Part shown: piece by piece, positions 12,849 through 19,051 of the stretch | How the letters are laid out: every line of letters begins with the position of its first letter | Position numbering within the stretch: position 1 is the first letter of the stretch | IMG/VR virus record: IMGVR_UViG_3300045412_000366 | Coordinates: 1 to 44,532 of that record | DNA length: 44,532 nt | Direction: 5' to 3' (one strand) | Origin: a virus | The notes under the pieces: generated by a model | Seen by the model: only the letters and a program-made list of their open reading frames with translations | Told to the model about the DNA's origin: nothing | Database searches by the model: none | Translations under genes and position numbers: made by a program

Positions 12849-13104
12849 GATAATCTGGAGGAATCAATAGGTCTTCTGAGTCAATAACAAAGTAACTGTA
12901 ATTTTGTTGCTGGCATATTTTAAGAGCAACATCATCTTCAATTTCGTATATTTGAAGTTCTGGATAATCGTCAGCTTCTAAAAGTCCAGCAAATCTTTTT
13001 GCATCATCAGGATCAGAAAACATATAAAGAATTTTTTTACCGGTTTGTGATGGGGCAGCATACAATCCTTCAATTGCTTTTCCTTTTAATCCAATAACAT
13101 ACAT
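12835..13104 (-). CDS. Small protein between gp47 and gp46 (89 aa)
   Basis: Start MYVIGLKGKAIEGLY at 13104 is chosen because it forms a TAATG junction with the gp47 stop; an in-frame start at 13119 would add five residues within gp47. The product has alternating strand and helix segments (KILYMFSDPDDAKRFAGLLE) and a C-terminal DSEDLLIPPDYHDSF. I do not recognise the family. Its place inside the gp47-gp46 operon suggests co-expression with the Mre11/Rad50-like complex, but no interaction can be inferred from sequence. Confidence 0.8.
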   Translation of the reverse strand: MYVIGLKGKAIEGLYAAPSQTGKKILYMFSDPDDAKRFAGLLEADDYPELQIYEIEDDVALKICQQQNYSYFVIDSEDLLIPPDYHDSF

Positions 13105-14144
13105 TATTCTAGCTCGCAAGCTTCTTTATATATTTGTTCAAGTTGAGTCTTTACTTTAATCTTATTAATTGGAAGTTCTGTTTCTTCAACATAACGATTT
13201 AAAATTGAAATTGTATCTTCAATTTTTTCAAAATCAACATCTTCTGCTTCAGAGATTTTAAAATTTTCAATAACTTTAATCTCGTGACAACCACACTTTG
13301 AAAGTTTATCAAAAAAAATTTCAAACTTTTTCTGATTTGTTTTCTTTTCAACTACCAACTTAATAAACTTATCTTTACAATCCCGATAATCAAACATTTG
13401 ATGATCAGTATCACTGTAATAGATTTTTTTAAAAATACGAAATGGGTTATTGATTGTAGTTAGTTCATATGTCTCAGTATCATAAAGATGAAATCCTCGT
13501 GAATCTCCGAGATCATTCCAAAACATTTCATAAGGATTTCCAAGATAAAAAATTCTACCATTACTACTTCTAGTATGATAGTGTCCCGAAAACACTCTGT
13601 CAAATTTTTTAAATGGTGTTGAATCCATTCCATGATCTTGAAGCATTCCCCGATACATTTCAAATCCTGTTAATTCCAAATGACCCATTACAACTTTAGC
13701 TTTACTTTTTTCAATTATTTTTAAAGTTGAAGGTTCATTTTCAGAATTAATCCAAGGAATGAATAGTATATTAGTATTTCCAACTGCAATTTCTTCAGTT
13801 TCTGAAATAACTCTAATATTATCATATCCTCTTAATAATAAATCTATGCTGTTAATAGTATTTGAATTTTTATAATAAGCGGTATGATTTCCAATTACAG
13901 TTAAAATTTCAATATTCAATTCTTTCAATTTATCATAATAATTTTTTTGTGCCCAATCAAGACTCCAAAAGTCAATTACCTTTCTATTATCAAAAGTATC
14001 ACCCATATCAATTAATATGCTGATATTTTCTTTCTCTAAAGTTGGAAAAAAGATTTCATCATAAAACTTTTTAAAATAATCGTGAAAAATCTTACTTCCC
14101 TTTCTAGCTCCAAAATGTTGATCAGTAATAATAGCAACTTTCAT
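13104..14144 (-). CDS. 47: Recombination endonuclease subunit gp47 (SbcD/Mre11-like)
   Basis: A 346-aa metallophosphoesterase, close to T4 gp47 in length (339 aa). All five phosphoesterase motifs are visible in order: TDQHFG at the N-terminus, DMGDTFDNR, VIGNH, VMGHLEL and FSGHYHTRS. It is the nuclease of the gp46/47 complex that resects double-strand ends. The start overlaps the gp55 stop as TAATG (14142-14146) and its own stop overlaps the next gene the same way, implying coupled translation from gp55 through gp46. Confidence 0.96.
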   Translation of the reverse strand: MKVAIITDQHFGARKGSKIFHDYFKKFYDEIFFPTLEKENISILIDMGDTFDNRKVIDFWSLDWAQKNYYDKLKELNIEILTVIGNHTAYYKNSNTINSIDLLLRGYDNIRVISETEEIAVGNTNILFIPWINSENEPSTLKIIEKSKAKVVMGHLELTGFEMYRGMLQDHGMDSTPFKKFDRVFSGHYHTRSSNGRIFYLGNPYEMFWNDLGDSRGFHLYDTETYELTTINNPFRIFKKIYYSDTDHQMFDYRDCKDKFIKLVVEKKTNQKKFEIFFDKLSKCGCHEIKVIENFKISEAEDVDFEKIEDTISILNRYVEETELPINKIKVKTQLEQIYKEACELE

Positions 14145-14626
14145 TAGTTATAAAGCATTTTATTATGAACACTATTTTTAATTGCATTGTAATCAGATTC
14201 TGAACTATCTAAAATATTTCCATCAGAACCAAAAACTTGATCAAATCCAGACTGTTCTAAAATTTTGGTTTTAATTTCCAATTGTTTCTTCTCCTTTGAA
14301 ATTCTACGAAGAAATGCATAATAGATGATTTGAGTAAAATATGCAAATGGGTTTCCTCTGTTTGGATCAAAGTTATCAATATATTGTACACAATTTTCCA
14401 TACCATCCGAAACCATGTCTTCCCTGAACATGTAGTTCATAAAATTTGGTTTATACGATAGATGTGTTGCAATCTTAAGAAAGCATTCACCAATATATGG
14501 GGGTATCCTTGGTCTAGGTAGTTCTTCCTTTTTTGCTTTATTTACAGAATTTTTATATTCTGACAAAGCCAAAAGAAATTCTCTATTATTAACGTAGTGT
14601 TCAGAATTTTTTTTTCTTTTAACCAT
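14144..14626 (-). CDS. 55: Late-transcription sigma factor gp55
   Basis: A 160-aa homologue of T4 gp55 (185 aa). The start at 14626 (MVKRKKNSEHYVNNREFLLAL) is preferred: the 22 codons between it and an in-frame upstream start at 14692 would cross the promoter at 14649-14677 and do not resemble the family. The conserved region 2-like segment is NCVQYIDNFDPNRGNPFAYF followed by FLRRISKEKKQ. With gp45 and host RNA polymerase it recognises TATAAATA late promoters, several of which are present to the right. A strong sigma70-like promoter precedes it. gp47 follows by TAATG. Confidence 0.93.
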   Translation of the reverse strand: MVKRKKNSEHYVNNREFLLALSEYKNSVNKAKKEELPRPRIPPYIGECFLKIATHLSYKPNFMNYMFREDMVSDGMENCVQYIDNFDPNRGNPFAYFTQIIYYAFLRRISKEKKQLEIKTKILEQSGFDQVFGSDGNILDSSESDYNAIKNSVHNKMLYN

Positions 14627-14648
14627 GGTAGAAGTCGTGTTTGTTACT

Positions 14649-14677
14649 AATATAAGACATATATCCCGATTTGTCAA
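14649..14677 (-). promoter_or_regulatory. Near-perfect sigma70 promoter for gp55
   Basis: The minus strand reads TTGACA (14677-14672), a 17-base spacer and TATATT (14654-14649). The -35 is exact and the -10 has one mismatch. The start of transcription would fall near 14643, about 17 bases before the gp55 ATG. It fits early expression of the late sigma factor. Confidence 0.82.
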
Positions 14678-14685
14678 TAAGGGGG

Positions 14686-14714
14686 TTGACAAAACTGCCG
14701 AAATCTGCTATGAT
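14686..14714 (+). promoter_or_regulatory. Divergent sigma70-like promoter, antisense to neighbouring genes
   Basis: The plus strand reads TTGACA (14686-14691), a 17-base spacer and TATGAT (14709-14714). The -35 is exact and the -10 has one mismatch. It diverges from the gp55 promoter with only eight bases between the two -35 boxes. No plus-strand gene follows, so its product would be antisense RNA to the 127-aa gene and possibly uvsW. Confidence 0.6.
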
Positions 14715-14738
14715 AACTCTGTCAGGGTTAAAGGGGTA

Positions 14739-14785
14739 CTTTAGAGTCTCTTAGAGTCTTTAAGACTTAAAGATCTTCTCTAAAG
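14739..14785. repeat. Nested inverted repeats with direct repeats
   Basis: The outer arms CTTTAGAG (14739-14746) and CTCTAAAG (14778-14785) are exact complements. The inner arms AGTCTT (14755-14760) and AAGACT (14762-14767) are also exact. TTAGAGTCT is directly repeated at 14741 and 14751. The structure spans the stop codon of the 127-aa gene and lacks a T-run on the minus strand. Confidence 0.6.
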
Positions 14786-15143
14786 ACTTTCTGAAATCTT
14801 CTAGTTTAGAGATGTATCCCATTGATTTATTAGGTAATGCTTTTTTATTTCTTTGTGAATCAATTTCATATAAGTATTGATTATACAACTTAATAATTTT
14901 AGAGTCCTTTACTTCAATCATAGTCATAACTTTATCCATATCAATAAAATATAAAGATTCACCACTATACTTGATCCATGGTTCTATTTTAACTACAGGA
15001 CCTAGGGGAGTATCTATATCTTTCATTATGATGGGATTATTCAATGCTAATAAAGTTCTATCTTCTTCATCAAATGCACATACTATAGTTAATACTTCTT
15101 CTCCAGAAGTTAATTTAACAATTGCTAAGAATTCTTCATTCAT
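14760..15143 (-). CDS. Conserved phage protein, small beta-barrel-like (127 aa)
   Basis: Function not recognised. The N-terminal half looks like an Sm/Lsm-type strand pattern (LAIVKLTSGEEVLTIVCAFD, then LALNNPIIMKD). Next come KIEPWIKYSGE, DMDKVMTMIEV and a tyrosine-rich helix. The C-terminus is basic. The same arrangement (NP turn, W, T-x-x-E, Y) occurs in the 109-aa protein next to gp43. It overlaps uvsW by ATGA (15140-15143), so it ends the gp3-uvsY-uvsW operon. Its 3' end lies in a nested inverted repeat and faces an antisense promoter. Confidence 0.8.
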   Translation of the reverse strand: MNEEFLAIVKLTSGEEVLTIVCAFDEEDRTLLALNNPIIMKDIDTPLGPVVKIEPWIKYSGESLYFIDMDKVMTMIEVKDSKIIKLYNQYLYEIDSQRNKKALPNKSMGYISKLEDFRKSLEKIFKS

Positions 15144-16606
15144 GGTTTTTTCATATCAATGGTAATAATTTCATAGTTAAACTTTTCTTCATTATAGATT
15201 TTGATTCTTTCCATTAGATGATTTAGAGTATAGTTCTTTAATTTTTTATTACTGATATCATCAGAAATGTCATAAAGAATTGCTTTTATTTTATTTGTTC
15301 CTTTTCTTAAAACTCTTCCAATACTTTGAAGATTTCTTATCCTAGATTTGCCTGGGCTAGCAAATATAATATTATGAAGGTTACGAATATTAATACCAGT
15401 TGAAAAAGTCCCATAAGAGGCAACAATAATGGCATTTTCTTCAGTTTCAGTCAAACTTCTTACATTCTCTCTATCTTCAGTATCTACACCACCATGAACA
15501 AAGAAAAGTTTTCGCTTATCATCTTTGGAATTATTTATAAGGTCGTATAAAACCTTTCCATGGCTTTCTACTCGGGTAAATAATATCAAAGTATTTCCTT
15601 TCAAATCTAAAGCTAGATTCTTGATAAAAGTATTTCTATGATCATTCTGAATTAAAAATTGTATCTCTTTTCCATAGTTTTCAAATTTAACATAATTATG
15701 TTTTAATAGTAAAATTTTGATATCTAATTTAGATAAGTATCCCCTATCAATTAATTCTTTAATTTTAGTTACATTGTAAGATGGACCAAATAATCCTTCT
15801 AAAATCCATTTATGAGTTTGACTTCCATCTAAAGTTCCAGTAAAACCAAATCTATATTTGCAGTCCAATAACTTAGTCATGATATCAACTAAAGATTTAG
15901 ATTTAAATAGATGTGCTTCATCTCCAATTACTACATTAAAATTTTTAAAAAATGATTTGTCTAATTTATAAATGGACTGCCAAGTTGTAATTACAACAGG
16001 TTGATTTGTAATTTTTTCTCTTCCAGAATAAATTTTATGACAGTACTCTTCAGAATTCCAACCATATTCAGTAAAATCTTTATACATTTGTTCTACTAAT
16101 GATGTAGTTGGAACTACAATTAATGTTGACATATTTTTCTCAGTAAAATATCTAACAAGAGAATAAATCATTAAAGATTTTCCTGATGCTGTTGGAGATA
16201 TTAATAATTTTCTGTTATATTTTAAAGCACTATAAACACCATCAATTTGATAATCTCTAGGATCATGACTAGAAATTTTTTTCATATAATCGGAGACACC
16301 TTCTCTAGAAATAAGTTCATTTACTTCAAAGGGAACTCCATAGAATTTACTATCTACAAACTTATAAGTATACTTATGTTGATCGCAAAAGTCTATTATT
16401 TTATCTAAAAGCCCAACATAAATTTCTCCAGTTGCAGTAGAAAATAAACGAATCTTTCCATCCCAATACTTTTTTCGGTATTGTGGCATGAATTTTGCAT
16501 TTGGAACTTCAAATGTAAATCTTTCAGAAAGTTCTTGAAAAATATAAGGTTCTCCTTGTAATTTCAAATAAACTTCATTTTTCTTAGATATTATTAAGTC
16601 GGCCAT
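15140..16606 (-). CDS. uvsW: RNA-DNA / DNA helicase UvsW
   Basis: A 488-aa superfamily 2 helicase, near T4 UvsW (503 aa). Motif I is SPTASGKS, motif II DEAH (VVIGDEAHLF), motif III FTGTLDG, and motifs V-VI ASYGTFSTGINIRNLHN and SIGRVLRKG. The N-terminal domain (about 100 residues) contains FMPQYRKKYWDGKIRLF, as in UvsW. In T4 it unwinds R-loops and recombination intermediates and drives the switch from origin-dependent to recombination-dependent replication. It starts in a TAATG junction with uvsY. Confidence 0.95.
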   Translation of the reverse strand: MADLIISKKNEVYLKLQGEPYIFQELSERFTFEVPNAKFMPQYRKKYWDGKIRLFSTATGEIYVGLLDKIIDFCDQHKYTYKFVDSKFYGVPFEVNELISREGVSDYMKKISSHDPRDYQIDGVYSALKYNRKLLISPTASGKSLMIYSLVRYFTEKNMSTLIVVPTTSLVEQMYKDFTEYGWNSEEYCHKIYSGREKITNQPVVITTWQSIYKLDKSFFKNFNVVIGDEAHLFKSKSLVDIMTKLLDCKYRFGFTGTLDGSQTHKWILEGLFGPSYNVTKIKELIDRGYLSKLDIKILLLKHNYVKFENYGKEIQFLIQNDHRNTFIKNLALDLKGNTLILFTRVESHGKVLYDLINNSKDDKRKLFFVHGGVDTEDRENVRSLTETEENAIIVASYGTFSTGINIRNLHNIIFASPGKSRIRNLQSIGRVLRKGTNKIKAILYDISDDISNKKLKNYTLNHLMERIKIYNEEKFNYEIITIDMKKP

Positions 16607-17037
16607 TAGCTATACCCAGCTATAAATTTTTGAAACTCTATGGAATTTTTAATTTGATATGTTCGGTTTAAAATTACCTTTAAAATCTCTTCAATAAAAT
16701 TTAAAACGATCAAATAATATTCATTTTTCATTTTAAGCTCATTTAATTTTTTATCTGCATCTATGTACCGAACTATAGTATCTTTATCAATTAGTTTTTG
16801 TGGAAATGGTTCTTGTGCATAAATTTCTGGAGAAGCTTTTCCCTTATAAAAATCATATCTTTCTTTCTTTAATACACAATATTCGTAATTTAATTTTTTT
16901 TGAAGAAGTTTGAAATTGTTATAAATTTGAAAATACTTTGAATGTAGTTGTGGAATTCGGATAGATTCTAAATGTAAATTATCAGGATCAATCACAGAGT
17001 CTTTATTCCACATATCCTGAATTTCCTCAATAGTCAT
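16606..17037 (-). CDS. uvsY: Recombination mediator UvsY
   Basis: A 143-aa protein close to T4 UvsY (137 aa). It starts MTIEEIQDMWNKDSVID like the T4 protein and has RYDFYKGKASPE (the R-x-D-Y-Y-x-G region) and a DADKKLNEL segment. UvsY loads UvsX recombinase onto gp32-covered single-stranded DNA; neither UvsX nor gp32 is in this window. It overlaps gp3 by ATGA (17034-17037) and uvsW by TAATG. Confidence 0.9.
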   Translation of the reverse strand: MTIEEIQDMWNKDSVIDPDNLHLESIRIPQLHSKYFQIYNNFKLLQKKLNYEYCVLKKERYDFYKGKASPEIYAQEPFPQKLIDKDTIVRYIDADKKLNELKMKNEYYLIVLNFIEEILKVILNRTYQIKNSIEFQKFIAGYS

Positions 17038-17607: not shown

Positions 17608-17632
17608 AAAAAAGGGAGGCTTTCGCCTCCCT
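17608..17632 (-). terminator. Strong intrinsic terminator after gp23
   Basis: GGGAGGC (17614-17620) pairs perfectly with GCCTCCC (17625-17631) over a TTTC/GAAA tetraloop. On the minus strand it is followed by six T residues (17613-17608). It lies 21 bases past the gp23 stop, as expected after a very highly expressed gene. Confidence 0.9.
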
Positions 17633-17653: not shown

Positions 17654-19051
17654 TCACATTAAGTTGGTAACTTGAACTCTTCTATAGTAGCGATTAGCGT
17701 TAACACGAAGAGCACCAGATCCCTGATAAGTACCTTCAGCGAATGGGTTTGCAACCATACCATAACGAGTTTTAAACCCGATTTTTGGCTGGAAGGTGTT
17801 TTCGCCAACGGCACGAACCATTTGAAGGGGAACGTAGGGGCAATAGAATAGGCCAGCATCATAAGGATTGGTTCCTTTATAGCCGATAACGTAGTACTGT
17901 TGAGCAGATACGTTAGCAGAATAAGGATCAATATAGACCTTATACTTACCGTTGATAACACCAGCAAAAGTGTTGCCGGTATCATCTACATTTAGACCTA
18001 CATTCAGAGCAGGGGTGTAATCAAGAACACCTGCCATAGTTAAGGCAGAAGCCACATCTGCAGAGCAGATGATCATATTGCCTTTTCCTCTACGAGTTCT
18101 TTGAGCGATTGCATTAGCATCTCTCTCAAGTTGGAAAAGAAGTCCTTTGAACTTCTCAACTGACCAACGACCGTTTGAATCAACATCAAGGTCAAAATAA
18201 CCTGCGGTGGCAGTATTTACCTGAGCACCAGCTTCAGCAATTTTGTAAACTGTACGAACAACTTCACGGTTAATTTCAGCAAGAATCTCAGTGCTGAGGA
18301 TATTCGCAAGTTCGGCTTCTGCATCCAGACCGTGAATTGCTTTGATATCCTGAGCGAGTTCTAAGCTGTACTCAGCCTTGAGTGCTCTTGACTTCGCAGA
18401 AACTGTAACTTTCTCAATTGAGAAAGCCATTTCATTGAAGAAATTTGAGTTTACTCCATCACCGAGAGCCTCAGCCTCGGCATTACCCATTGCACCACCA
18501 ACATTATATGAAGTAGAACCGATGCCAGCAACGCCAGCAAGTTGATCGTTCAGAATTGCAGGATTGGTTCCAGTTTGAGCTGTAGTACCAATACCAGCAG
18601 CAGCATCTGCAAAACCGGCAGAAAGGCTCAGAGCCCTATTTTGACCAGAGAATGCAGAATCTGCTTCGTTGAAGAACGCTTCAGTTCCACTTTGATTATT
18701 ATAACGGGTTCTCATTGCAAAAATGAGTCCAGTAGGACCATTCATTGGCTGAACACCGCAAATATCATAAGCGATAAGTTGTGGCATTGACCGACGAATG
18801 AGGCTGATTAGAACAGGGTCAAAACCAGCAACAGGACCAGTGGCGGTAGAAGAACCAGTAAAACCGGTAGCTCCAGCAGACATTGTGGGTGAAGCTTCAG
18901 AAAGAAATCCTCTTTCTTCTTTTAAAAATCTTTCTTGATTTTCTAGCAAGATAGCGGTAACAGACTTCCTATAATTATCAGTGATAGGATTTAGTCCTTC
19001 GCAATTAAGAAGTGGTGACCACTTTTCTTGCAAATGTTGGGAATTGTACAT
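17654..19051 (-). CDS. 23: Major capsid protein gp23
   Basis: A 465-aa major head protein (T4 gp23 is 521 aa). The N-terminal pro-segment ends in RGFLSEASP, which fits the T4 prohead protease rule (L/I-x-E|A), so cleavage after E52 is predicted. Recognisable capsid segments include LIRRSMPQLIAYDICGVQPM, YNVGGAMGNAEAEALGDG and VKIGFKTRYGMVANPF-like C-terminal sequence (PKIGFKTRYGMVANPF). A T4 late promoter (19100-19107) and a GGAGAT ribosome site lie upstream and a strong terminator follows. No gp24-type vertex paralogue is present next to it, as in other marine relatives. Confidence 0.97.
   Translation of the reverse strand: MYNSQHLQEKWSPLLNCEGLNPITDNYRKSVTAILLENQERFLKEERGFLSEASPTMSAGATGFTGSSTATGPVAGFDPVLISLIRRSMPQLIAYDICGVQPMNGPTGLIFAMRTRYNNQSGTEAFFNEADSAFSGQNRALSLSAGFADAAAGIGTTAQTGTNPAILNDQLAGVAGIGSTSYNVGGAMGNAEAEALGDGVNSNFFNEMAFSIEKVTVSAKSRALKAEYSLELAQDIKAIHGLDAEAELANILSTEILAEINREVVRTVYKIAEAGAQVNTATAGYFDLDVDSNGRWSVEKFKGLLFQLERDANAIAQRTRRGKGNMIICSADVASALTMAGVLDYTPALNVGLNVDDTGNTFAGVINGKYKVYIDPYSANVSAQQYYVIGYKGTNPYDAGLFYCPYVPLQMVRAVGENTFQPKIGFKTRYGMVANPFAEGTYQGSGALRVNANRYYRRVQVTNLM

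Follow-up and report, generated by a model that had tools for sequence, protein, structure and literature searches.

A conserved antisense promoter set back to back with that of gp55, the late sigma factor gene of T4-like cyanophages

Upstream of the late sigma factor gene gp55, a T4-like cyanophage genome carries two sigma70-type promoter sequences placed back to back. Judged by its conservation, the one pointing away from gp55, antisense to the neighbouring genes, is real and under selection; it is the better conserved of the two and probably a working control element. Its sequence places it in a promoter class of T4-like cyanophages, TTGACA-17-TAnnnT-AACnCTGnnAGGGTT. How these phages, without MotA, AsiA or Alt, set the timing of early, middle and late expression has been described as unclear (PMC2984593). 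A conserved antisense promoter that overlaps the late-sigma promoter, and belongs to a class with its own start-site motif, may bear on that timing.

The promoter pair and its gene neighbourhood

The DNA analysed, hereafter the window, spans the 44,532 bases of a virus record and has its genes arranged as in T4-like cyanophages: uvsY, uvsW, the Sm-like gene of 127 aa, gp55, gp47, a small gene and gp46. The order matches that of DSL-LC03 and, with small insertions, that of P-SSM2. An earlier reading made from the sequence only had placed all local genes on the minus strand, and this holds for every gene-sized ORF from uvsY to gp46. The target of the sense promoter, gp55 (14144-14626, minus strand; 160 aa), matches Sigma70_r2 and is 75% identical to the annotated gp55 of DSL-LC03; downstream of it lies gp47 (13104-14144, minus), a calcineurin-like recombination nuclease subunit assigned from PF00149 and synteny. 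On the other side, 133 bp separate the gp55 start (14626) from the stop of the Sm-like gene (14760), whose 3' end is the first feature that the predicted antisense RNA would cover. The uvsW helicase gene (15140-16606, minus; PF21241 UvsW_N) is next on that path, and uvsY (16606-17037, minus; PF11056) follows.

The Sm-like gene (14760-15143, minus; T4-GC 139) was recognised by synteny with P-SSM2 and Syn1 and by a match to PF16243 Sm_like (E=2.5e-6, 28 bits) just below the cut-off of 29.4. Elsewhere it is labelled 'methylamine utilization', and it has a weak match to PDB 3by7; from its sequence it is a candidate phage RNA-binding protein. Farther off, a strong intrinsic terminator on the minus strand (17613-17632; AGGGAGGCGAAAGCCTCCCT, then T-rich) stands directly after a 465-aa gene (17654-19051) that is probably the major capsid gene.

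The gp55 promoter (14649-14677, minus) consists of TTGACA (14677-14672), a 17-bp spacer and TATATT (14654-14649), with a predicted start near 14643. The antisense promoter core (14686-14714, plus) has TTGACA (14686-14691), again 17 bp, and TATGAT (14709-14714), with TG one base ahead of the -10; its predicted start, 14721, is 78 bp from the other. Both match the consensus at 11/12 positions, on both strands the hexamers with 16-18 bp spacing are better than chance, as expected of sigma70-type sites, and 8 bases (14678-14685) separate the two -35 boxes. All of this, including the recomputed starts, agrees with the sequence-only reading. The two -35 boxes make up an inverted repeat with perfect 8-bp arms, TTTGTCAA-8-TTGACAAA (14670-14693), and only one site in the window, reported for both strands, fits the pattern TTGTCA-N6-12-TTGACA, against an expectation of 0.17.

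The two promoters are the best two among 77 sigma70-like sites in 14 kb. Sites matching at least 11/12 number 10 in the window (4 plus, 6 minus), compared with shuffle means of 1.4 and 1.6. There is one back-to-back pair, defined by a -35 gap of -6 to 20 bp, and none of 300 dinucleotide shuffles yielded any. The suspicion that such a pair is unlikely to be background is upheld by this result and by the retention of the plus-strand promoter in relatives. In Syn9 (L204-L207), 24 sites of at least 11/12 lie on the plus (gene) strand and three on the minus strand, the gp55 antisense promoter being one of the three. A scan for intrinsic terminators found no terminator-like site at 14630-14760, so that read-through from upstream is plausible. 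The T4 late promoter sequence TATAAATA does not occur between 4889 and 15531.

Conservation and geometry among relatives

Conservation was measured in gp55 relatives fetched by protein similarity only, blind to the promoter. There were 80, mostly 64-80% identical to the query, and 78 had enough upstream sequence. The antisense element is present in 78/78, a count inflated by the relatedness of the phages, which are not independent: TTGACA, a spacer of 17 (rarely 18), a TAnnnT -10 and, usually, AACTCTGTnAGGGTT or a variant. It adjoins gp55 with a 17-bp spacer in 74 of the 78, has an 18-bp spacer in L013 and L068, and lies about 600 bp upstream in L009 and L018, where a gene is inserted beside gp55. 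The sequence-only reading had staked the plus-strand promoter on conservation of TTGACA/TATGAT in close relatives, and conserved it is. Among 68 distinct copies, all six -35 bases and T1, A2 and T6 of the -10 are invariant, while most of the spacer carries 0.1-0.4 bits; invariant hexamer positions beside a loose spacer are what a promoter, and not some other type of site, would be expected to show. Scored with a weight matrix, the copy in the window reaches 36, against 3.8 at best in 20 mononucleotide shuffles, and no second match above 8 was found in the window. A near-identity DNA search in phages gave matches in the gp55 coding sequence only.

The element also lies upstream of gp55 in 10 of 12 cultured cyanophages tested (Syn9, P-SSM2, Syn1, S-RSM4, S-MbCM100, S-WAM1, Sf-CH8, S-RIM2, P-TIM68 and DSL-LC03), which provides exact coordinates: the antisense start is predicted at about 123698 (minus) in Syn9 DQ149023 and about 124805 (minus) in P-SSM2 AY939844. 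P-HM1 has a weak version, and among the phage genomes tested the element is absent in S-CREM2, Caulobacter phage Cr30 and Rhizobium phage RL2RES. In P-HM1 (L323) and S-CREM2 (L330) the gap before gp55 contains a dyad, ACACT-N3-AGTGT, which includes the -10 TACACT and replaces AACnCTG; possibly it performs the same function with a different operator.

The sense promoter scores at least 10/12 in 184/191 relatives, some of them loci retrieved through the element itself; its -10 is often a perfect TATAAT and its -35 usually TTGTCA. In 111 of 180 element-bearing relatives, again including element-pattern loci and so not unbiased for element presence, one -35 sequence (TTGTCAA) is shared at an offset of 1, the gp55 -35 reading as the antisense -35 in reverse complement with a one-base shift. 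The boxes are shared or abutting in nearly all relatives, and the window's layout of separate boxes 8 bp apart is among the less common ones. Since most relatives share one -35 sequence, the geometry implies that a polymerase is unable to occupy both promoters at once in most of them. The earlier proposal that binding at one promoter may exclude binding at the other is thereby made likelier than claimed. The spacing of the two -35 boxes varies among the relatives, and three phages have an antisense element without a partner promoter.

The plus-strand promoter had been described as having no gene to serve, and at gp55 no gene is found downstream of it. At three loci a 2OG-oxygenase-like gene has been inserted between element and gp55, and the element is intact at 590, 605 and 653 bp from gp55. 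There it stays beside the Sm-like gene, and gp55 has a separate promoter of its own. Survival of the element after separation argues against a role in occlusion only; tuning of gp55 by occlusion, one of the roles suggested in the sequence-only reading, cannot be its sole function. An activator site for gp55 was considered and rejected as the main reading, as the distance from start-site motif to gp55 promoter varies and the class also occurs in sense orientation before other genes.

A promoter class with a conserved start-site region

Pattern scans allowing up to 3 mismatches show one to three class copies per genome where the class is present; the reversed pattern gave zero matches in the same genomes. 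With the weight matrix built from gp55 copies, the window yields a single copy and the Syn9 genome two, one antisense at gp55 and one sense 53 bp before gp88. In the TATAAT form, 115 contigs were retrieved, 63 at gp55 and 52 elsewhere. Copies away from gp55 are mostly sense promoters, preceding a PDDEXK-like nuclease gene (a weak Pfam match), a small gene upstream of a ThyX-like gene (assigned by eye), gp88-like genes in Syn9 and S-RIM2 and, in Syn1, the first small gene of an early-looking cluster. The plus-strand promoter picked out in the sequence-only reading is conserved; what that reading missed is that the promoter belongs to a phage class with a conserved start-site region, mostly sense elsewhere. 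A search for over-represented words in the presumed early region of Syn9 gave none above threshold.

At two copies before the nuclease gene (L171, L201), a terminator-like hairpin, for example CGGGGTCTTGACAGACCCCGTTTTTTT, carries the -35 TTGACA in its loop, so that terminator and next promoter overlap. A host origin of the element was rejected: an exact-pattern scan of 84,980 genomes returned just three contigs. Exact motif copies are present in two Synechococcus cellular assemblies, a UW140 MAG and the single cell AG-670-B23 (L366:3408-3451 and L368:3020-3063), one near a resolvase and one near an Mrr-type restriction nuclease. In each, the first ORF of 45 or more aa on that strand lies 328 bp downstream of the -35, and these copies are possibly phage-responsive promoters on mobile islands or satellites.

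In several metagenomic phages a class promoter at the junction of fibre/structural block and small genes faces back into the end of that block. At L213, L280, L215, L235, L222 and L115 it is paired with a second TTGACA promoter aimed at the small genes. This site is unrelated to the gp55 locus, so the gp55 arrangement does not stand alone. Directly downstream of the backwards promoter, L240, L265 and L266 have a gene convergent to the fibre block, which suggests that the promoter is transcribed productively; L215, L235 and L222 have none. The gene was called 2OG-oxygenase-like by eye, and the 120 aa tested gave no Pfam match.

The start-site region itself (14715-14729, plus; AACTCTGTCAGGGTT) is an imperfect palindrome around the predicted +1, G14721, recognised by column conservation and by its recurrence at non-homologous loci. 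Perfect palindrome arms of at least 4 are found in 22/68 copies compared with 5.5 expected, which is suggestive only. For the AACnCTG part, agreement is 0.96 within genomes and 0.83 between them, and 0/5000 permutations reached 0.96, in a test of 22 copies from 9 genomes that, being related, are not independent. Spacer agreement between class copies is 0.47 within and 0.39 between genomes. AACCATG, for example, occurs at all three S-RIM2 sites and AACACTG at both Syn9 sites. That the motif agrees within a genome and the spacer hardly does speaks for a trans-acting factor common to the copies and against recent copying. We read this pattern as co-evolution of the motif with such a factor, the alternative being shared ancestry of part of the element. 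The palindrome-like region probably binds a putative regulator or sets promoter escape.

Possible roles and comparison with known systems

For the gp55 locus, the reading we favour, at about even odds, is that the pair is an operon-boundary module, one arm starting gp55-47-46 and the other firing antisense into uvsW and the Sm-like gene. Host sigma70 polymerase bound in one orientation would start the gp55-47-46 unit, and in the other would start an antisense RNA running into the Sm-like and uvsW 3' ends, the abutting or shared -35 sequences making the two binding events mutually exclusive. The most likely job of the antisense arm would be to oppose transcription arriving from the uvsY-uvsW-Sm unit, through polymerase collision and antisense RNA. 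It may also draw polymerase off the gp55 promoter early on, such competition being a side effect or second function of the boundary module. The late sigma factor would then have both a promoter and a timing of its own. The early or late status of the neighbouring blocks is inferred here from gene content. Against a boundary module, most copies elsewhere are ordinary sense promoters, and the antisense placement might exploit an available cassette. Tentatively, the start-site operator (AACnCTGnnAGGGTT) could mark a small promoter regulon under one putative regulator, with the antisense gp55 copy its most conserved member, sharing its -35 with the late-sigma promoter as a mutually exclusive late-timing switch.

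A pure occlusion switch, in which the antisense promoter only competes with the gp55 promoter until a regulator binds the start-site region and shuts it, seems unlikely. The shared or abutting boxes, the perfect consensus of the antisense -35 and the within-genome agreement of the start-site motif, with the trans-acting factor that it suggests, would suit it well; however, the element outlives its separation from gp55, the pair spacing varies and the same module stands before unrelated small genes. The antisense RNA might instead be the product, pairing with uvsW/Sm-like mRNA and altering its stability (e.g. by masking RNase E sites, a mechanism proposed in other cyanophages) or acting as a small RNA. 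In our analysis an effect on mRNA stability is a serious rival, even if the product reading as a whole appears rather improbable. CfrI of S-PM2 provides a precedent (PMC2984593), protection from RNase E by antisense transcription is described in PMC10976474, which cites Stazic 2016, and after insertions the element remains with the Sm-like 3' end. Yet there is no Rfam match at E up to 1 on 13900-15700, antisense terminators are not conserved (scattered sites in 9/75 loci) and the first 100 nt of the predicted RNA are mildly structured (mean z -1.35 against mononucleotide shuffles).

We consider it improbable that the element is an orphan cassette, the mobile early promoter of a gene now lost, kept by chance or recombination. 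Such an orphan should have decayed, and 68/68 distinct sequences keep the core although the gp55 proteins have diverged to the identities given above. It would nevertheless account for the same class standing in sense at many loci and for a fibre-junction promoter that serves a gene at some loci and none at others, and PeSL promoter cassettes are known from T4-like phages. T4 origins such as oriF, near uvsY, are primed through an R-loop, and a strong promoter beside uvsY/uvsW, with a purine-rich first 15 nt (alignment of gp55 relatives) and few copies per genome in mixed orientation, could conceivably prime DNA synthesis likewise. This is highly improbable given that in Syn9 the cumulative GC skew does not turn at 123.7 kb (after detrending, its extremes fall at 44 and 102 kb) and that sense copies lie directly before genes.

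In the literature covered by our search, no published description of the gp55 back-to-back module was found. Antisense RNA in cyanophages and bidirectional promoters are both known in kind. Bidirectional promoters of the Warman/Grainger type typically have a -10 region in common and about 18 bp between their starts. The gp55 pair resembles these in its overlapping opposite-direction sequences, where one binding event would exclude the other (PMC12825309), a likeness of sequence; it differs in that the -35 is shared or abutting and the window starts are about 78 bp apart. In E. coli, polymerases are known to compete at bidirectional promoters with one strongly active direction, and basal ones fire too rarely to compete (PMC12825309).

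The antisense RNA CfrI, found in cyanophage S-PM2, extends over psbA and a homing endonuclease (PMC2984593), and antisense transcription is also on record in Kyanoviridae (PMC10976474). The gp55 locus shares with CfrI an antisense setting in a T4-like cyanophage, here with a predicted RNA, and differs in that no Rfam match was found at the locus. The PeSL cassettes, said to have been described by Arbiol in 2010, offer another likeness: a strong sigma70 promoter at several loci of one genome, with some sense class copies on a terminator-like hairpin. Unlike them, the gp55 copy has no stem-loop terminator, and spacers differ within one genome. The likeliest overlap is with Doron 2016, reportedly describing for Syn9 a new early element along with middle promoters of host-like type, and part of the present findings may already be published there. 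Early genes of S-PM2 and Syn9 carry sigma70-like motifs (Clokie 2010, PMC2984593). The present class resembles the host sigma70-type early and middle promoters of cyanomyoviruses, TTGACA/TATAAT read by unmodified host polymerase (PMC2984593), but is set apart by the extra conserved AACnCTGnnAGGGTT around the start and by its antisense placement at gp55 throughout the unbiased set.
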